From Desulfoplanes sp. (GTDB taxonomy: Bacteria > Desulfobacterota > Desulfovibrionia > Desulfovibrionales > Desulfomicrobiaceae): a stretch of 17,393 nt of DNA. The stretch spans positions 1 through 17,393 of the forward strand of contig JAQVZR010000008.1 in NCBI GenBank assembly GCA_028708105.1, given 5' to 3'. Below are positions 7,670 through 17,069 of the stretch, in pieces. A program made the position numbers and the translations under genes. Within the stretch, counting starts at the first letter, position 1. Every line of letters begins with the position of its first letter. The notes below the pieces were generated by a model. It saw nothing but the letters and a program-made list of their open reading frames with translations. It ran no database searches and was not told where the DNA came from.

Positions 7670-9028
7670 TTATTTGTAATGGTGTATTTCCAGCTTGTCG
7701 TAAAAAGTTCTGCGGCTGATGCCAAGTATCTTGGCTGCCTTGGAGCGGTTGCCTCCCGTTTCTTTCAACGCTTTGCGGATGGCAGCTATTTCTGCCTGTT
7801 CCACAGCCTCCTTCAGAGACAAGGGGGCGTCGATTTTCGGGGCCAGATAGGTGGTGACAGGCTGTGCCTGCGTACACAGGGAATCCAGGCCGATGACGGT
7901 ATCGTCGGTCAAAAGCACTGCTCGTTCAATGATATTTTCCAGCTCTCGGATATTACCTTTCCACGGTGAATCCATAATCATCTGCATGGCTCCGGGGTCC
8001 AGTGCTGTAACTTTTTTATTGTAGAGTTTGTTAAATTTGTGGATAAAATGGTCCACAAAAAAAACCAGATCTTCTTTACGTTCTCGTAGGGGCGGCAGAT
8101 TCAGAGGGATAACGGCCAGACGGTAATAAAGGTCCTTGCGGAAGCCGCCTTTTTCCACTTCTTCGTTTAAATTACGGCTGGTAGCTGAGATAAAGCGAAC
8201 ATCGATATGGATGGGAATATTACCCCCAACGGGTTTGATTTCTTTTTCCTGGATGGCCCGCAGGAGTTTGACCTGGGTTGAGGGAGAGAGTTCGCCGATT
8301 TCATCCAGGAAAATAGTTCCGCCCTGGGCTTCTTCCAGAAGTCCCCGTTTGGCGCGCACTGCTCCGGTAAAAGCACCTTTGGCATGGCCGAAAAGTTCGC
8401 TTTCCAGGAGGTGTTCAGACAGCGCCCCGCAGTCAATGGTAAAAAAGGGTTTGTTTTTGCGGGAGCCGATTTGATGGCAGTGCTTGGCAAACATGGATTT
8501 CCCGGTTCCGGTTTCTCCCTGGATGAGAATTGATGCCTCGGAATCAGCAATTTTTTCAATAGTGGAGAGCATTTGCCGGATCACGGGGTTGTTTCCGATG
8601 ACCATAGGGGTGGAAGCATTCTGCTTTTCGCGGGAATCATAGTCTTCCAGCCGACGGTGTAATTTGCCGTACTCAATGGCCCGTCCTGCGAGAAGCGCCA
8701 GCTCTTGTGTTTTAAAGGGCTTGGTAATGTAGTTGAAGGCCCCCATGCGCATGGCTTCCACTGCGCTTTCGATGCTTCCGGCTCCGGTCATGATAATGAA
8801 AGGCTGGTGATGGTCAACACTACGGATGCGTTGCAGTAATTCCAGACCATCCACCGGTTTCATGGCCTGATCGCTGATGACCAGATCAAACATGATTTCC
8901 GAAAGGGCGCTCCAGGCTTCTTCCCCGCTTTCGGCGGTCTGGACGGCATATCCTTGTCGGGTCAGGGATTTTTTTAGGATGCTCAGCAGGTCTTTTTCAT
9001 CATCCACCAGAAGAATTTTATCAGGCAT
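7670..9028 (-). CDS. NtrC-family sigma-54-dependent response regulator
   Basis: 452-aa cytosolic transcription activator with the classic three-part layout. REC domain (about 4-118) has the acidic pair D9-D10, phospho-acceptor D53 (ISDQAMKP) and K103. The AAA+ sigma-54 interaction domain (about 142-370) has Walker A GETGTGKS (171-178), the sigma-54 contact loop GAFTGA (218-223) and Walker B GGTIFLDEIGE. A Fis-type helix-turn-helix closes the protein (about 415-450, GGNRSKAAKILGISRRTFY). All key residues for phosphorylation, ATPase activity and sigma-54 contact are present. It starts 11 bases after the stop of the sensor kinase, with AAGGA ahead of the ATG, so it is the partner regulator in one operon. 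Target promoters are unknown; the secretory/redox operon upstream of the kinase is the obvious candidate by position, but I found no good -24/-12 site there. Confidence 0.95.
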   Translation of the reverse strand: MPDKILLVDDEKDLLSILKKSLTRQGYAVQTAESGEEAWSALSEIMFDLVISDQAMKPVDGLELLQRIRSVDHHQPFIIMTGAGSIESAVEAMRMGAFNYITKPFKTQELALLAGRAIEYGKLHRRLEDYDSREKQNASTPMVIGNNPVIRQMLSTIEKIADSEASILIQGETGTGKSMFAKHCHQIGSRKNKPFFTIDCGALSEHLLESELFGHAKGAFTGAVRAKRGLLEEAQGGTIFLDEIGELSPSTQVKLLRAIQEKEIKPVGGNIPIHIDVRFISATSRNLNEEVEKGGFRKDLYYRLAVIPLNLPPLRERKEDLVFFVDHFIHKFNKLYNKKVTALDPGAMQMIMDSPWKGNIRELENIIERAVLLTDDTVIGLDSLCTQAQPVTTYLAPKIDAPLSLKEAVEQAEIAAIRKALKETGGNRSKAAKILGISRRTFYDKLEIHHYK

Positions 9029-9039
9029 GCTACAGTTCC

Positions 9040-10971
9040 TTAGCCTTTGATGGCTGGAAATTCCAGAATCATGGCTGTCCCTTTGCCAGATTCCGATTCG
9101 GCATAAATCAGGCCGTTATTGCGTTCCACTATCCGTCTGGAGATAAACAGCCCCAGACCAAAACCACCCTTGCGGGAGGTGAAAAACGGTTCAAAAATCT
9201 GCCGCAGATTTTTTCGGACAATCCCTTGCCCCTGGTCTCTGACAACGATCTGGATGGTACTGTTTTCCCCAGTCCCTGTTTTGACCGCGGTCAAGGTGAT
9301 TTGTTTGTCAGAATCAGTATGTTCGAGAGCATTAAAAAGTAAATTCATGAAAACCTGTTGTAGGGAGCGGACATCTCCGTTGAAAAAGAGCGGGCCCGCA
9401 GTGACCTTGATGGTGATGGTATTTTTTTTGGCTTTGGGACTGACCAGCATGACACTTTGTTCAAGCAGGTCCTGAACATTTATTTTTTCTAGGCACAGGG
9501 CTTTGGGTGCGGACTGAGCCAGAACGCCACGGGTAATTTCTCCGGCCCGTTCAGCATTGCGCAAAATAGCCGAGAGGCCTTCTTTGATATCGGTGGTAAG
9601 GTGATCACTATACAGCAGTTCTTCGGCATTAGCTTGAATGATACTTAGGGGGTTATTGATTTCATGAGCTACGGAGGCAGCCATCTTGCCGATAATGGCC
9701 AGCCGTTCGGATTGGATGAGATCTTCCTCCATTTTATTGCGTTCGCTCACATCCCTGGCAAAGAGGCAGGCCATATCCTCGGCCTGTTCTTCCTCAATGG
9801 GCTGCCCGGCAATTTCAACCACTATTCTGTCCCCACCTCTTCCCCTCAAGGTAAATTCGTGTTTGCCATAGCCGTCATTGAAGAGCTTGTGCAGGAATGC
9901 TTTCATCCCGGGTACATCTTCTTTATCCATGATATGGTCGATAGGGATGTTCTGGTCAGGTTCAAGGGAGAGGGTTGTTTGTACCTGTTTGTTGGCATGC
10001 AGAATAGTGCCCTCTTCATTGACCAGGAAAATCATGTCCGGGGAAGATTCAATAAGCACCCTGTAGCGTTGTTCGGTGCGTCGTAAATCTTTGGTGATTT
10101 GAGCCACCTTATGTCGGAGCAGGAAACTCCAACCCATCGTTACTATAAGAAAAATCCCAAGCCCGCTCAGGGCAAAGAGCAGGCGTTGAGCATACCGTCC
10201 CAGACGGGATGTGTCCGTTATGGAGCGGCCGAACCATTTGTCCCGGAGTTGCTGCAGGGCTCCGATGCTTTTTAGATGTTCCACGGCCTTTTCGAGCTTC
10301 AGGGTCAGCTCCGGTTTGTCTGGAGGAATCATGATGCCTAAAGGTATCTCTCTGAGAGGCATGCCTTTTTTTAAAACATTTTTGAATTCCTGAGCCGCAA
10401 TGATATAATCTGCTTCTTTTTCTGAAGGGGCTATGAAGACATCCACAACCCCGTTATTCAGCATATTCAATGCCTCCAGCCCGGAAGGGACTTCAATGAC
10501 GTTGCGGAGTTTGTGTACTGCGGGATCATAATCGACACCTTGCATGATACTAATGCGTTTACGATGCAGGTCTTTCAGGCAGGTAACGGATGTACAGCTT
10601 TTGTTGACATAGAGATGTTGCTTCAGGCTGTAGTCGACCGGAATGAAGGTATAACCAAGTTCCTTGGCCAGTTCTCGTGTGCCGTGGGAGATAAAATGTA
10701 TTTTGCCGGCCTTAAGCAGTGTTTTGCGTTTGTTCAGGTCAGGAATCTGGATAAATTTGATATCCGCTTTGATGAATTTTCCGATCATCAGCCATTCATC
10801 AATGGTATACCCGCGGATAACCTGATTGCCGTTTTCGATGGACAGAAAAGAGAAGGGAGGAGAAATTGCCCGGACCCCGATTTTATAGACGGGGCGGCCC
10901 TGGGCAGGTCCCGGTAAAACAAGCAGCAGGGCGAGCATTGTCCAAAAGATATGAAGTCGTGTAGTGTGCAT
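9040..10971 (-). CDS. Sensor histidine kinase with periplasmic solute-binding domain and PAS
   Basis: 643-aa inner-membrane sensor. A signal peptide or N-terminal anchor (1-25, hydrophobic 9-20) leads to a family-3 solute-binding-protein domain (about 27-250) in the periplasm. Then come a transmembrane helix (about 264-285), a PAS domain (about 302-405), a HisKA dimerisation domain with phospho-acceptor H436 in AHEINNP, and a HATPase domain with an N box (NLLFNALEH), DQGQGI and GFGLGL. The ATG at 10969-10971 is chosen because it begins a good signal sequence; an in-frame TTG at 11067 would start inside a terminator hairpin. No Shine-Dalgarno sequence precedes it, which is odd. Such sensors bind small molecules (amino acids or other polar ligands) directly; the ligand here is unknown. 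It pairs with the sigma-54 regulator 11 bases downstream. Confidence 0.93.
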   Translation of the reverse strand: MHTTRLHIFWTMLALLLVLPGPAQGRPVYKIGVRAISPPFSFLSIENGNQVIRGYTIDEWLMIGKFIKADIKFIQIPDLNKRKTLLKAGKIHFISHGTRELAKELGYTFIPVDYSLKQHLYVNKSCTSVTCLKDLHRKRISIMQGVDYDPAVHKLRNVIEVPSGLEALNMLNNGVVDVFIAPSEKEADYIIAAQEFKNVLKKGMPLREIPLGIMIPPDKPELTLKLEKAVEHLKSIGALQQLRDKWFGRSITDTSRLGRYAQRLLFALSGLGIFLIVTMGWSFLLRHKVAQITKDLRRTEQRYRVLIESSPDMIFLVNEEGTILHANKQVQTTLSLEPDQNIPIDHIMDKEDVPGMKAFLHKLFNDGYGKHEFTLRGRGGDRIVVEIAGQPIEEEQAEDMACLFARDVSERNKMEEDLIQSERLAIIGKMAASVAHEINNPLSIIQANAEELLYSDHLTTDIKEGLSAILRNAERAGEITRGVLAQSAPKALCLEKINVQDLLEQSVMLVSPKAKKNTITIKVTAGPLFFNGDVRSLQQVFMNLLFNALEHTDSDKQITLTAVKTGTGENSTIQIVVRDQGQGIVRKNLRQIFEPFFTSRKGGFGLGLFISRRIVERNNGLIYAESESGKGTAMILEFPAIKG

Positions 10972-11010
10972 GGAGGCGTATATTGCGTATTCTGTTTTTC
11001 TGTGATCATA

Positions 11011-11065
11011 AAAAAAAGCCGGTTTCCTTTCCTGCACGAAGGTGCTGCAAGAGAGTGAAACCGGC
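11011..11065 (-). terminator. Rho-independent terminator after the seven-gene operon
   Basis: Arms GCCGGTTTC (11018-11026) and GAAACCGGC (11057-11065) pair perfectly over 9 bp. The enclosed 30 bases contain a smaller GCAC/GTGC hairpin. On the minus strand the stem is followed directly by seven T (11011-11017). It lies 25 bases after the stop of the selenoprotein gene and separates that operon from the kinase-regulator pair. Confidence 0.85.
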
Positions 11066-11090
11066 AATAAAGCAATGAAACGTTCCCATG

Positions 11091-11783
11091 TTATTTGGCT
11101 TTTCCTATGAGAACCGCTTTGTAACCTCTGCCGATGTCATTGCGAGCATCCGAATAAACCAAGACGATGTCAAGGAATCGTCCTGATTGAGTTGGACGTA
11201 GGGTAACCGGTACCGGGATTGTTTGGCCGGCCGGGATAACCAGGTTGCCTGTGAAGTAGGTGGTCTTGAATTTCATGGATTTGATGGCCGTGATAGTCAG
11301 AGGAGCGTCGCCTGTATTTTTGATTATGATCGGCACCGTGTTCTGACTGCCGGCCGTAAGTTCACCTGCATTGATCTTGCGTGGTGTAACCTCGATGACT
11401 CCCATGGGGATGGCTTTTACGAATCCCGAGATATGAATAATCTGCGCATTTTTTTTGCCGTCACCGGTGAAGACCGTCACTGTTTTGTCGAATTTTCCCG
11501 CATACTTGAATGTTCTGTAGGTAATCATCAGCGTGGTTTGTTCACCAGGTTTTAGACTACGCTTTCCAAGCGTAGTTGTCGTGCAGCTTCACGAGGTGGT
11601 GACATTGGTAATGGTCACTGCCTCGTTGCCGGTGTTGGACAGGGTCACCTTTTTTTGAGCGACCGGGCCTTCGATCAGGGTTCCAAAATCAATGGATGCG
11701 CTACTGGGCACAAGAGTTCCGGCTAAAGCCGGAAGAGCCAGGCAGCAAAGGAGCATGGACAGTACGAGTATTTTTTTGAACAT
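11091..11783 (-). CDS. DUF1573-like secreted selenoprotein, in-frame UGA decoded as Sec65
   Basis: 230-aa exported protein if the in-frame TGA at 11589-11591 is read as selenocysteine. A signal peptide (1-21, ending ALA-G) is followed by a first Ig-like DUF1573-type domain (FGTLIEGPVAQKKVTLSNTG, then KPGEQTTLMITY and GKFDKTVTVFTGD). A second, similar beta-sandwich follows (INAGELTAGSQNTVPIIIKN). DUF1573 proteins typically have S-C-G-C-T after the N-V-x-T strand; here the sequence is NVTTS-U65-S-C67-T, so TGA occupies the first Cys site and gives a U-x-C redox pair. The frame has no other stop and the homology runs straight across. A perfect SECIS-like hairpin follows. AAGGAA precedes the ATG, four bases after the cytochrome stop, so it is the last gene of the operon. 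Ordinary gene calling would give two fragments (11589-11783 and 11091-11528) or a pseudogene. Required selA/B/C/D genes are not in the window. Confidence 0.87.
11556..11576 (-). promoter_or_regulatory. Bacterial SECIS element
   Basis: In mRNA sense, the arm ACUACGCUU pairs perfectly with AAGCGUAGU (9 bp) around a GGA loop. It begins 12 bases after the UGA, so the loop is 21 bases from the UGA. Published bacterial SECIS rules ask for an apical loop 16-37 bases from UGA, a 4-16 bp upper stem and a G in the first two loop bases; all three are met. It lies inside the coding sequence, as bacterial SECIS elements do, and would bind SelB. Confidence 0.82.
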
Positions 11784-11786
11784 GGT

Positions 11787-12263
11787 TTATTCCTTATTTT
11801 TGCTGCAATGTTCACCATGCACGAGTTGTGCTTTGACTGCATAGTTGAAGTGTTTGTCCTGCCCTGGAGTGTGACAGGTCCTGCAGGAGGCCTCATCGGG
11901 ATGGCTGATGATATCTTTGGGGTCTTCACTTTGCACATGTCTGGCTCCGGGACCGTGGCAGGATTCACATTGCACGTTGATAAGTTCCGGGGTCAGATCC
12001 GTATCGATAAAACCACCGTCAGCCTCCATGGCCACCACATGGCATTTTACGCAGCCGGGAGTGGTTTGCTTTTCTTCGCCCTGATGGGCCAGGTCAGCGA
12101 AAGCGTGGGCATGGGGTGTTGTCAGCCAGCCTCTGGCTTGGGCTTCATGACAGTCCGCACAGGCCTTTTCCCCCACATAGTCTCCGAAGAGTTCCGCCTG
12201 TGCGGAAGAAATGATGTATAACGTGACAATCACAGCTCCCAAAAGAACGAAGAGACGGTTCAT
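11787..12263 (-). CDS. Secreted tetrahaem cytochrome c
   Basis: 158-aa periplasmic or extracellular multihaem cytochrome. A signal peptide (1-23, hydrophobic, ending AQA-E) is followed by four CxxCH haem-attachment sites: CADCH (35-39), CVKCH (71-75), CESCH (99-103) and CRTCH (127-131). Further His (H51, H53, H60, H109, H138, H149) could supply distal ligands. The YVGEKACADCHEAQ and NVQCESCHGPGARH stretches resemble the cytochrome c554/multihaem family. An extra Cys (C153) sits near the C-terminus. AAAGGAAAG precedes the ATG, and the stop lies four bases before the selenoprotein ATG, so the two are likely co-translated. In context it should carry electrons to or from the U-x-C protein or another operon product, which is inference. 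Confidence 0.92.
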   Translation of the reverse strand: MNRLFVLLGAVIVTLYIISSAQAELFGDYVGEKACADCHEAQARGWLTTPHAHAFADLAHQGEEKQTTPGCVKCHVVAMEADGGFIDTDLTPELINVQCESCHGPGARHVQSEDPKDIISHPDEASCRTCHTPGQDKHFNYAVKAQLVHGEHCSKNKE

Positions 12264-12283: not shown

Positions 12284-12580
12284 TTAACAGTTGCAGCCGG
12301 AAGTGGCCTCAATATACAGATGCTGCTTAAGCTGGCGCAAGAGGCTGTTGTCGATGCCGTCCACGTCCAGCAGTTCATCCATATCAACGAATTCTCCGTT
12401 CTCGGTCCGGGCATCAATAATTTCTTGCGCCAGTTCCTGGCTGACCCCGGGGACGTTGGCAAGCTGTTCCACAGTAATGGCATTGAGATTAAGTTTTCCG
12501 TCGTGATCTTCAGCAAAGCCCGGAGTTGCAGCTACAAAAAGGGCAGTGATCAGTGCCAAAATGACTATGTATTTTTTCAT
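12284..12580 (-). CDS. Secreted ComEA-like helix-hairpin-helix protein with CNC tail
   Basis: 98-aa protein with a clear signal peptide (1-23, ending GFA-E) and a double helix-hairpin-helix domain (about 30-88: LNLNAITVEQLANVPGV, ending in a second hairpin with DVDGIDNSLLRQL). This fold in ComEA binds DNA in competence, but short exported forms are common and often of unknown role. The C-terminus is SGCNC, a C-x-C pair at the end that is not part of the fold and could be redox-active or bind metal. SD is AAGGAG before the ATG at 12578-12580. It sits between two small membrane proteins and the cytochrome, and no other competence gene is nearby, so DNA uptake seems unlikely here. Function not established. 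Confidence 0.85.
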   Translation of the reverse strand: MKKYIVILALITALFVAATPGFAEDHDGKLNLNAITVEQLANVPGVSQELAQEIIDARTENGEFVDMDELLDVDGIDNSLLRQLKQHLYIEATSGCNC

Positions 12581-12989: not shown

Positions 12990-14147
12990 TTAGGCCGGAA
13001 GCAATCCGGTTTTGACACATAGAAGAATGGCAGCGAGCAACAGGACCATACGGATACATCCGGCAATGCAGGTCACGGCAAAGCATTTGATTCCGTCGTG
13101 GGCAATTTCACGTAAAGGCAGGCTTAACCCCAGGGCTGCAGCGGCCATGGAAAAATCCCATTGGACCATGTTGAAAATAGCGTGGGCTGCCGGCTGTCTG
13201 AACAGATGCAGGCAGGCCAGAGCCCAGAAGAAAATGAATACCATGAGCCAGATGGGGAATGTTTTGATATCCCCAGTGGCGTGGACGTTTGTATTCCCTT
13301 TGTTTTTGAGCTTGCGGATGAACATGACCACAAAGACATAGATGAAACCTGCGGGCATAATGACGTGCCGGCCAACGTCAAACCAGGTGGCATAGCGTCC
13401 TGCCTCGTAGCTCTGGCCAAAAGCCGCAAACAGGCTTTGGGCTCCGTTGCCTACGGTCGTAACTGCAGCCAGGCCGAAGTATTTGTCCGGGATGCCCACG
13501 AGGGGGCCGACCAGGGGCAGAATCAGCATGGCTATGATCCCGAAAAGAATCACGCAGGCTGAAGCCCCGACGACCTGTCCACCCTTGGCCTTGATCAGTG
13601 GCATGAGGATGACCCCGGCATGGGGGTCTCCCGTGGAGAGTCCGCCGGCAATGATGGACGTCTGACGATCATCGAGCTTGAGTAGTCTGCCGGTGTACAA
13701 CGTGACCGTTGCGGTGATGAACATGGCGGCCACGCAGATTAGGATGGGCATGAAACCCAGTTTGGAGGCATGACCGATCATGAAGTGGGGGGCCAGCATG
13801 ATGATGCCCAGGGGCATCATCAGATGGATATAGGAAAGACCACGTTTCCAGGCGTTGGGGACCCCGAAAAGATTGCCGATAATAAGGCCCATCAATAACG
13901 GATTCCAGACGAAGTTGGCATTCATAATCTGGAAGAAGGACTGGTGGTTAAGGGGGCCGATGACCCCATCCAGCCAGGCAAAGAGGTTTTGCAGAGTGAA
14001 AGGGTTGGGAACGCCGACCAGGTTGTTGCTGAAAATGGCAATGAAGAACATGGCCAGCAATCCTGGCAGAGCGGCTTTCAGACTGTACAGGGTACTAAAG
14101 ATGGAGCTTCTGTTCATGTCGTATGTGGCGGTTGATATTGTATTCAT
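12990..14147 (-). CDS. Divergent YeiH-like (putative sulfate exporter family) transporter
   Basis: 385-aa polytopic inner-membrane protein with about ten hydrophobic segments. Its layout matches the YeiH/UPF0324 family: an early WNPLLMGLIIGNLFG block, a central LLKLDDRQTSIIAGGLST stretch followed by PLIKAKGGQV and LFGIIAMLILPLVG, and a late MAAAALGLSLPLREI block. In typical YeiH proteins the central loop reads T-S-I-C-G-A-S-A; here it is L-S-T-G-D-P-H-A (170-177), so the signature is replaced and substrate may differ. The family's link to sulfate is itself only putative. AAGGA precedes the ATG at 14145-14147, 15 bases after the upstream stop. It is the only transporter in the operon and probably moves the compound that the secreted proteins act on or produce. 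Confidence 0.78.
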   Translation of the reverse strand: MNTISTATYDMNRSSIFSTLYSLKAALPGLLAMFFIAIFSNNLVGVPNPFTLQNLFAWLDGVIGPLNHQSFFQIMNANFVWNPLLMGLIIGNLFGVPNAWKRGLSYIHLMMPLGIIMLAPHFMIGHASKLGFMPILICVAAMFITATVTLYTGRLLKLDDRQTSIIAGGLSTGDPHAGVILMPLIKAKGGQVVGASACVILFGIIAMLILPLVGPLVGIPDKYFGLAAVTTVGNGAQSLFAAFGQSYEAGRYATWFDVGRHVIMPAGFIYVFVVMFIRKLKNKGNTNVHATGDIKTFPIWLMVFIFFWALACLHLFRQPAAHAIFNMVQWDFSMAAAALGLSLPLREIAHDGIKCFAVTCIAGCIRMVLLLAAILLCVKTGLLPA

Positions 14148-14162
14148 TATCTGAGTCCTTTC

Positions 14163-17069
14163 TTATCTGCGGATGTGGGCGGAACCGCCGGTGTTGACTG
14201 CGCCGCTGATGCTTCCAGCCGGAGCGGATTGTCCGGTTCTCCAGGCTTCCCGGAAGGCCAGCCTGGGCAGCATGGATAGGCGCAGAAAACCTTCTGTGGT
14301 GCCGTTGATACCCAGCAGCACGTCCACATTGTTCCGTGGTCTGAATGCCAGATTGTCGGTCCTGCATGTTTTGCCGTGATGATGGCCTTCGATATGCCAG
14401 GCCATGATCATTTCCCCGTCAAAACTGTCGATGACAAGGGTAAATAGCGGTTGTCCTTGTGCATCTTTGGGGCCGTCATATGTTGGATGGTCCTTGTCCA
14501 GAACAATTGCCTGGGGGTTGTCCAGCAGCAGTTCGTTGAACTGATAGCAATGACCGCAGACATCAGGACGGACCATGAACCGTGGGTCATGTTTATACGG
14601 TGTATCCCGTTCTATATCTTCAATGCCGGTATAGGTGTAGAGTCGGGCTTTGCCTTGTTTGAAAGGCTTTTTAACGTCCATTTCCACCATCACGGAACCC
14701 AGACGCAGTTGCATGGTGCGGGCTGTTTCCATGTGCTGGGGCAACAGGGCGTTTGTATCGGCGTTGAGAGGACCTAAAACCTTGCTGGCCAGCACTGTCC
14801 CTGATGTATTGCTGATTTCCACGCGGACCGTTCCAAGCTGTGTATCCATGCCGGTGCAGCGCAGAATTTTATCACCGATATGAGCGGTATCGCCGGTTCC
14901 CAGCAGGACGCCTTGGGGGTTGTTCAGGGTGTAACTGATGGCATTGATGGATGGGGTGGCAAATTCTTTGATCCGTACATAGTTGGAGCCCACATAGTCC
15001 GGCACGATAAAGGTGGAACCTTCGGCAAAAATTTCGGGCATGTAGTAGCGATTGTACGGGTCCTTCTGATCAAAGCCCTGGGCAATAAAGAAATGTGAGC
15101 CCCAGCGGTTGCCGGAATATTTCATCAGGCTCAGGGAAGCCACCGGGCGGTCATCCAGATAGGTCATCCCCGTGTAGCGCAGTGCCTTGTTGCGCACGCC
15201 CAGGAGCTGATCCTGCCAGTACATGAGGTTGGTGTCGCCCATGGGCTGATTCTTCCAGAAATCCAGGTTCAGATTCTTGAGTACATACGTGCCGGACGTG
15301 AACGTGGTCAGATAGGCCTTTTCCCCGAGCATAAAAAAAGGTTCTGCAGCCAGAGAGCGGATGTTTCGGGCGTTTCTGGTGGTGTAGCACAGGCCCGCAG
15401 GAGGGATGACGATGCGGCCATGTTTGTAATCAACATAGCTGCCCCGGATGACCACTGCTTCCGCCGAAAGAAGCTTTTCATGATTGCGGTTGCGGAATAT
15501 TTTCCGGTCCAGGCCTTTAAAGCGGGCCACCAGCGGTGCGGTGTGGTCCGGTTCATAAAATTCACTACTGGAAACCACCTTCGGATACGAGGTAAAGTGC
15601 GACTCTTCGGTGATGGTCCCCAGTGAGGAATCCGCCAGACGTTGCAGGAAGCTGCGTTCAATCATGGGTTCCAGTACCGGAGAAGAACCCAGGAAAAAGT
15701 CCAGGTTTTCTTTGCCTTCTTTGGCCCACATGACCATATTATCCGTCCGCATGGCGTAATAGTCCCGCACATACAGGTTGTGCACGGTCTTTTTGTTGAA
15801 CCCGTTAGCCACAATTTTGAAGGCCGGGCGGTTCAAGATTTCTGAATATTTCACCGGGCCTTTGTAGGTGTCATGGGCATTATCGAGGGTGATGGTAGTG
15901 TTGTTTTCGAGGAGCAGACGCTGCAGCATTCCTGTTTGGGGGTTTGCTTCCAGAACGACATTATAGCGTTTGTCCAGGGGCCAGGGCTGATTGTTTTGTA
16001 CGGTGATCAGATTTCGGTAGATAACAAAGGACAGATTCCCGCTGCCGAAACCATGGGCCTTGCCCGTGGACCATGGGATGAAATCGGAATTTTTTAGAAA
16101 GGTCGGGTCAATGACGATTTCCACCCGCATGTCTTCCCCTGGTACATCCAGGGCATATTTTCCTTTTTCATCGTTCCGGTTTTTATAATTCTGGGCCGTA
16201 GCTGGTTGGATCAGTTTTTCTGCCAGAATCTTGCTGCCGGTAAGATTGGTGACCTTGACCAGAAAGCCATCCGGCTGGCGATAGGCGTAAATGCGCTTAT
16301 TCATATACAGGCGGTAATCTTCCTGGCGGACTTCCAGCGTCACCGGTCGTTCCATGGCAAATGTGGCGCTGGTGACTACGGGGAATGCAATGGAACTGAA
16401 GGTGGCCGTGTCGAAGCCAATGTCTTTGGCCACGTACCTGCTCGCCCCGAGATAATAGGTCTTGTCCATATAAAACTGGAGCAGTTGAGGGTTCAGACCT
16501 TTATTGAGTTCCAGTGTACGGGTATCTTCACGGTCTCCGAATTTGGAAGCTATGGGGAATTCCAGCGGCCAGCCCCCTGAAGGGGATATGACGGCAAATT
16601 CACCGTAAGGCTTTTGGTAATGGTCTGTGGAGTAATCGAACCAGAGGCGATACCCGGTTTTCCCAAGCTCTTGGCGTTCTCCTTTTGTAATGGAAATGTC
16701 TTTGAAAACGTTTTTGTCCGTATTCAGGTCCACTAGATACGCCTGTTCTCCCAGGAGCAGGAAGGGGTCGCGCATGAGAGGTCGGGCATCACCGGAGGTT
16801 TCGGAAATATAGAACAGACCGCCGGGATTGATCGTGGCCTGGCCGTCTTTGATTTCGCTCTGGCGCAGCACGATGGCCTCGGAAAGGTGTTTTGCTTGTC
16901 CGTCCCGGTTTTTGAAGACCTTGTTTCGTAATCCCGCTAAATGCGGCAGAAAGGTCATGTCGTTAGCCGGGGAAAGCCCATGCGGGTCAATTCCCGCGCA
17001 GATCCCGTTCGGTGTGAAGCCCACGATAAAGATCAGGGCCAGGACCAAAGATGTTAGTGTGTTTTTCAT
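14163..17069 (-). CDS. Large secreted protein of unknown function with two related halves
   Basis: 968-aa exported protein that I do not recognise as any named family. A signal peptide (1-25, ending ICA-G) has no lipobox. The mature part looks like an internal duplication: residues about 45-128 (RNKVFKNRDG, PFLLLGEQAYL) match about 516-601 (DRKIFRNRNH, PFFMLGEKAYL), and about 395-480 (DTYKGP, RTDNM) match about 856-942 (PTYDGP, RTDNL), an offset of about 460-470. It seems beta-rich, with no membrane helix after the signal. All mature Cys lie in the second half (C561, C738, C838, C841, C902); C838-GHC841 and EGHHHGKTC902 form a possible metal or thiol site that the first half lacks. AGGAAG precedes the ATG at 17067-17069. 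It is the first and largest gene of the operon, so it likely defines the system's substrate. Confidence 0.8.
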   Translation of the reverse strand: MKNTLTSLVLALIFIVGFTPNGICAGIDPHGLSPANDMTFLPHLAGLRNKVFKNRDGQAKHLSEAIVLRQSEIKDGQATINPGGLFYISETSGDARPLMRDPFLLLGEQAYLVDLNTDKNVFKDISITKGERQELGKTGYRLWFDYSTDHYQKPYGEFAVISPSGGWPLEFPIASKFGDREDTRTLELNKGLNPQLLQFYMDKTYYLGASRYVAKDIGFDTATFSSIAFPVVTSATFAMERPVTLEVRQEDYRLYMNKRIYAYRQPDGFLVKVTNLTGSKILAEKLIQPATAQNYKNRNDEKGKYALDVPGEDMRVEIVIDPTFLKNSDFIPWSTGKAHGFGSGNLSFVIYRNLITVQNNQPWPLDKRYNVVLEANPQTGMLQRLLLENNTTITLDNAHDTYKGPVKYSEILNRPAFKIVANGFNKKTVHNLYVRDYYAMRTDNMVMWAKEGKENLDFFLGSSPVLEPMIERSFLQRLADSSLGTITEESHFTSYPKVVSSSEFYEPDHTAPLVARFKGLDRKIFRNRNHEKLLSAEAVVIRGSYVDYKHGRIVIPPAGLCYTTRNARNIRSLAAEPFFMLGEKAYLTTFTSGTYVLKNLNLDFWKNQPMGDTNLMYWQDQLLGVRNKALRYTGMTYLDDRPVASLSLMKYSGNRWGSHFFIAQGFDQKDPYNRYYMPEIFAEGSTFIVPDYVGSNYVRIKEFATPSINAISYTLNNPQGVLLGTGDTAHIGDKILRCTGMDTQLGTVRVEISNTSGTVLASKVLGPLNADTNALLPQHMETARTMQLRLGSVMVEMDVKKPFKQGKARLYTYTGIEDIERDTPYKHDPRFMVRPDVCGHCYQFNELLLDNPQAIVLDKDHPTYDGPKDAQGQPLFTLVIDSFDGEMIMAWHIEGHHHGKTCRTDNLAFRPRNNVDVLLGINGTTEGFLRLSMLPRLAFREAWRTGQSAPAGSISGAVNTGGSAHIRR

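Follow-up and report, generated by a model that had tools for sequence, protein, structure and literature searches.

Selenoproteins are already described in the DUF1573 family (PF07610), which two reviews (PMC9312934, PMC13188914) list with the motif UGC in their tables of selenoproteins. Two sequences of this kind, assigned to pfam07610 and carrying the motif UxC, were entered as OS_HP2 in a marine survey of 2008 (PMC2398784), and the NCBIfam model of the OS_HP2 (seleno)protein is NF041425. The hint in the initial annotation that DUF1573 could be new as a selenoprotein family was thus mistaken. The stretch of Desulfoplanes sp. DNA analysed here (the window, 17,393 nt) encodes a DUF1573 protein with selenocysteine (Sec) predicted where the C-x-C of the DUF1573 domain has its first Cys, as NF041425 specifies, but it scores 64.9 with this model, under the cut-off of 100. 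It is therefore placed among the DUF1573 selenoproteins, as a probable one, but not in OS_HP2 as delimited by the NF041425 model, whose cut-off is exceeded in 44 of 395 genomes of the phylum. Among 30 OS_HP2 loci that were printed, U-G-C occurs in 27 and Cys in two; one was extracted out of frame.

The DUF1573 gene (Table 1) is a single frame from the ATG at 11783 to the TAA at 11091, with one internal TGA; the two minus-strand ORFs that the initial annotation had joined across this codon do form one DUF1573 product. Read through, this product matches the Pfam profile PF07610 in two stretches with 103.9 bits, the gathering cut-off being 26.1, and its N terminus, judged by eye, resembles a signal peptide. 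The predicted structure (pLDDT 92.6) places residue U65 on a turn between strands 56–63 and 68–72 of the first Ig-like domain. As had been proposed, the TGA falls on the first Cys of the motif, where aligned homologues have Cys or TGA. The copies present in databases are fragments, with 154 aa in Desulfoplanes formicivorans and 146 aa in Pseudodesulfovibrio nedwellii. The comparative evidence for a selenoprotein gene, set out below, is strong, and the UGA at codon 65 very probably directs selenocysteine insertion.

Table 1. Coordinates of the features discussed; positions refer to the window unless a locus is named.
Feature	Position	Strand	Description
DUF1573 gene, predicted selenoprotein	11091..11783	minus	230 aa through TGA; two DUF1573 (Ig-like) domains
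In-frame TGA, predicted selenocysteine	11589..11591	minus	codon 65, motif TS-U-S-CT; 11 TGA genes, six Cys genes
Cys67 codon	11583..11585	minus	partner of residue 65 in U-x-C; sole other Cys of mature part
SECIS-like hairpin	11556..11576	minus	perfect 9-bp stem, GGA loop
Tetraheme cytochrome c554-like, exported	11787..12263	minus	PF13435, 63.2 bits; four CxxCH
Small exported helix-hairpin-helix (ComEA-like) protein	12284..12580	minus	PF12836, 63.8 bits; C terminus C-N-C
PF03601 membrane protein, YeiH-like, putative transporter	12990..14147	minus	102.5 bits
968-aa exported S-layer-like protein	14163..17069	minus	internally duplicated; relatives give weak S-layer matches
C838-G-H-C841 of the 968-aa protein	14547..14558	minus	neither Cys varies among 29 aligned proteins
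Histidine kinase	9040..11067	minus	solute-binding-protein-like sensor and PAS domain (profile scan); cassette member
NtrC-type response regulator	7670..9028	minus	named from sequence reading; cassette member
Half-length TGA relatives of the 968-aa protein	L124:1354-2853, L125:1369-2859, L126:904-2406, L127:1453-3024		

Among 297 genomes of the order, the two-domain protein was found at high score in 13, two belonging to the genus of the window and 11 to one other genus. These counts leave out four weak matches (G032, G033, G068, and G179; E 9.7e-6 to 3.7e-4) of the 17 matching genomes; one of the four, G032, has a TGA. A TGA gene is present in nine of the 13 genomes and a Cys gene in six, with both arranged in tandem in two (G173 and G231). 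The tandem Sec and Cys copies in two genomes are located at L077:8110-9638 and L079:7852-9380. A class sample of 348 genomes returned the same 13. Scanning of the phylum (395 genomes) yielded eight matches, including two further TGA genes, that of G393 and a divergent one in G659, and five genes without TGA, which were kept out of the hairpin set. The TGA occupies the identical codon in all 11 TGA genes, namely that of the window, eight others of the order and two elsewhere in the phylum, and the motif is U-S-C in nine and U-A-C in two. The mark of a bacterial selenoprotein gene, a TGA aligned to the Cys of homologues and kept across several species, is thus present. In a tree of 38 proteins the distribution of Sec requires six changes, at least five of them forced by well-supported branches. 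P0029, a Cys protein whose sister has Sec, keeps L-G-Q over the former loop like the Sec forms, which suggests a recent change from Sec to Cys.

The hairpin described in the initial annotation, beginning 12 nt past the TGA, was recovered in the same form, and its loop starts 21 nt past the TGA. The limits of the bSECIS model given in PMC13188914 are a loop of 3–9 nt, a stem of 4–16 bp, a G in loop positions 1–2, a distance of 16–37 nt from the UGA and an MFE of -7.5 or lower; with a loop of 3 nt reading GGA, a stem of 9 bp, a distance of 21 nt and -10.9 kcal/mol, the hairpin of the window lies within all of them. Across 11 sequences (10 distinct), 90% of the cells pair, and changes on both sides are seen in seven of the nine pairs (15 cells). 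The observed covariation was reached by none of 500 shuffles on four of five measures and by 82 of 500 on the fifth, that of further pair types, and sliding of the stem partners lowers pairing to 20–48%. Only three of the 10 distinct sequences retain the outermost of the nine pairs, which leaves a common stem of 8 bp; G231 and G393 each have one further broken pair. The hairpin is absent from the six Cys genes, with 37% pairing in its columns.

Stem length was also compared with a null in which the protein was fixed and the codons were redrawn synonymously 2000 times, with genes outside the genus using their own codon usage alone. For the window, an equally long stem arose in one of the 2000 draws; P lies between 0 and 0.043 in the 11 TGA genes and between 0.64 and 0.98 in the six Cys genes. 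The fold energy is less informative: on this null it is unremarkable for the window (P 0.19) and for several of the TGA genes (range 0.002 to 0.64), although that of the window is unusual against dinucleotide shuffles (z -3.3).

The source assembly (2.26 Mb in 392 contigs, 77.6% complete) contains selA, detected by profile search at 612 bits, and selB, the latter in two pieces at contig ends. The pieces share an exact 32-base overlap, as if the gene had been split during assembly. In this incomplete assembly, none of the 150 candidates scored, out of 230 from the first look, reached the tRNA-Sec cut-off, and the eight best of 11 weak matches are ordinary tRNAs according to ARAGORN. Both tRNA-Sec and selB are over the cut-off in the other 16 of the 17 genomes tested, including G017 of the same genus, in which selB is intact. 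Genomes with the Cys gene only and four genomes of the family that lack the gene also carry tRNA-Sec and selB; therefore, the machinery permits selenocysteine insertion but does not discriminate.

The DUF1573 gene is part of a seven-gene cassette that also encodes the 968-aa S-layer-like protein, the PF03601 protein, the ComEA-like protein, the cytochrome, the histidine kinase and the NtrC regulator. The cassette recurs in 13 of the 14 other loci, and the cytochrome adjoins DUF1573 in all 14. The genes for the histidine kinase and the NtrC regulator are on the opposite strand in G393, and just the cytochrome and DUF1573 are retained at the G659 locus. All 15 loci, the window included, have the four CxxCH motifs in the cytochrome, and two database proteins consist of the cytochrome fused to a Cys-form DUF1573. 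The C-N-C terminus of the ComEA-like protein is invariant in 14 of 14 cassettes, and this protein is a possible exported thiol carrier. The PF03601 protein scores 47.3 with TIGR00698, under the cut-off of 232.6.

The following scheme is proposed. SelB, acting with the hairpin just downstream, would decode the UGA at codon 65 as selenocysteine, giving a periplasmic selenoprotein with two Ig-like DUF1573 domains and the U-x-C motif on the turn of the first. There, U65 and C67 could form a selenenylsulfide that passes electrons to and from the tetraheme cytochrome encoded next to it. The targets could be paired thiols elsewhere in the cassette, namely those of the C-N-C tail in the ComEA-like protein and of the CxxC in the S-layer-like protein, or else a small compound of sulfur or selenium. 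The constant adjacency of the cytochrome, as well as its fusion to DUF1573, indicates electron transfer, and from this gene arrangement the link to the cytochrome is given an even chance. Such a relay is not obligatory, since in G373 and G630 the 968-aa protein, the transporter and the ComEA-like protein are present and neither the cytochrome nor DUF1573 was found within the 18–19 kb read.

A nonsense mutation or a sequencing error, making the gene a pseudogene or the TGA an artefact of assembly, might be suspected in a window that comes from a fragmented, incomplete assembly with no tRNA-Sec among the candidates scored. Against this, separate genomes supply ten more genes in which this codon is TGA, the hairpin co-varies, and the segment downstream of the TGA is under purifying selection (window and G017 compared, dN 0.143 and dS 0.90 after the TGA, 0.204 and 0.82 before it), which makes the explanation extremely improbable. 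Two proteins could also be made, with translation stopping at the TGA and restarting at a downstream start codon, which is where gene callers put the starts: 50 of the 120 database homologues listed begin only past the site, which is CxC in 67 others and W in three. The starts of these short entries, however, are spread over residues 72 to 106, as expected of annotation choices, the downstream piece would have no signal peptide and would lack part of an Ig domain, and a homologue with Cys is one protein of about 231 aa; two products are very improbable, and the 50 short entries have the appearance of misannotated Sec genes. Alignment A4 contains 53 proteins, 52 of them picked from the 120 listed. 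The W in P0052, P0055, and P0056 may be a TGA rendered as Trp by the gene caller. The selenoprotein gene put forward in the initial annotation therefore stands, given the alignment of TGA with Cys and the co-varying hairpin: selA and selB are encoded in the genome, the homologues carry Cys or TGA at the site, and the gene has not decayed past the TGA.

The use to which a selenocysteine at this site would be put is a separate matter. Motifs of the C-x-C and CxxC type often bind soft metals, and the U-x-C of the selenoprotein, with the C-N-C tail and the CxxC, might bind or hand on a metal or metalloid instead of performing redox chemistry. The recurrence of vicinal C-x-C and CxxC sites in the cassette beside a membrane transporter would suit such a role, while the tetraheme cytochrome that adjoins in every other locus, and is fused in two proteins, speaks against it; this role is considered rather unlikely. 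A redox-active U-x-C pair remains the preferred reading.

The cassette also led to a second candidate. Neither Pfam nor NCBIfam gave a match for the 968-aa protein itself; the alignment (A5) in which its CxxC was followed comprises 26 of 120 listed proteins, the query and two loci. Half-length relatives of this protein (about 500 aa), found in four genomes of one other family, have TGA precisely in place of the codon for the first of the two Cys in the CxxC. Among the 110 database relatives of the half-length protein listed, taken from the best 7994 candidates scored, 93 end at RPDT, RPET or RPDS, immediately before the site; Desulfitobacterium, Thermosinus, and Neomoorella are among the names. 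CxxC is present at the site in seven of the 18 database proteins that were aligned with the four loci (alignment A6, 18 of the 110). A hairpin 24 nt past the TGA, with a loop starting with GG, is fully paired in two of the four genes and contains mismatches in the other two. For two half-length proteins scanned, NCBIfam gave nothing but EstD at E 0.016 for one, and the sole Pfam hit was NosL, at E 0.032, in one of the two. Five further relatives were scanned, of which P0270 passes S_layer_N (27.7 vs 27) and the rest are under their S-layer cut-offs. In the 119-family table of PMC13188914, compared without its PTHR and cd models, no matching entry was seen. As judged from these sequences, the half-length relatives are a probable unrecognised selenoprotein family (RPDT-U-xx-C). 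A remote relative of the half-length protein (26% identity) is encoded by plasmid pFER4 of Paracoccus ferrooxidans (L137:3118-11332), amid genes for cysteine desulfurase, TusA, DsrE, selA, and trxB; these neighbours hint at sulfur or selenium handling.

The whole reading of a gene that is shortened in databases thus reveals a conserved, apparently exported redox cassette, not accounted for by any family name, and this cassette points in turn to a probable unrecognised selenoprotein family. The repeated exchange of Sec and Cys, together with the tandem copies in two genomes, offers a natural test of what selenium brings to an enzyme. An uncharacterised exported selenol/thiol system of anaerobes, of which the window would show one version, passing from the tetraheme cytochrome to the U-x-C DUF1573 protein and on to the C-N-C carrier and the CxxC S-layer-like protein, along with a widespread unrecognised RPDT-U-xx-C family, is put forward tentatively, as a picture that may well prove wrong.

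Comparison with known systems locates the new elements. In predicted fold, the DUF1573 protein resembles Ig domains of the ASH/HYDIN type and 2qsv of Porphyromonas gingivalis, and HYDIN chains are among its profile matches; the eukaryotic HYDIN-type matches are structural ciliary proteins and have no bearing on redox function. The UshA-like (seleno)protein NF041198 is another selenoprotein linked to the cytochrome type of the window, its C-terminal part (positions 402–519) matching the window cytochrome at E 1.1e-33. The window cytochrome differs in having no UshA domain, in scoring under the cut-off of that model (116.7 against 275) and in ending at a TAA, with no Sec seen. With OS_HP2 the window protein shares the Pfam family and the alignment of a predicted Sec with the first Cys of C-x-C; it differs in its U-S-C motif, its two DUF1573 domains and its location in the seven-gene cassette. 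The first domains of the two groups are split with an SH-aLRT of 98 in a quick tree that included 20 of the 30 OS_HP2 loci and gave long-branch warnings. On this comparison, what appears to be new is a distinct clade and its cassette, rather than the DUF1573 family as such.
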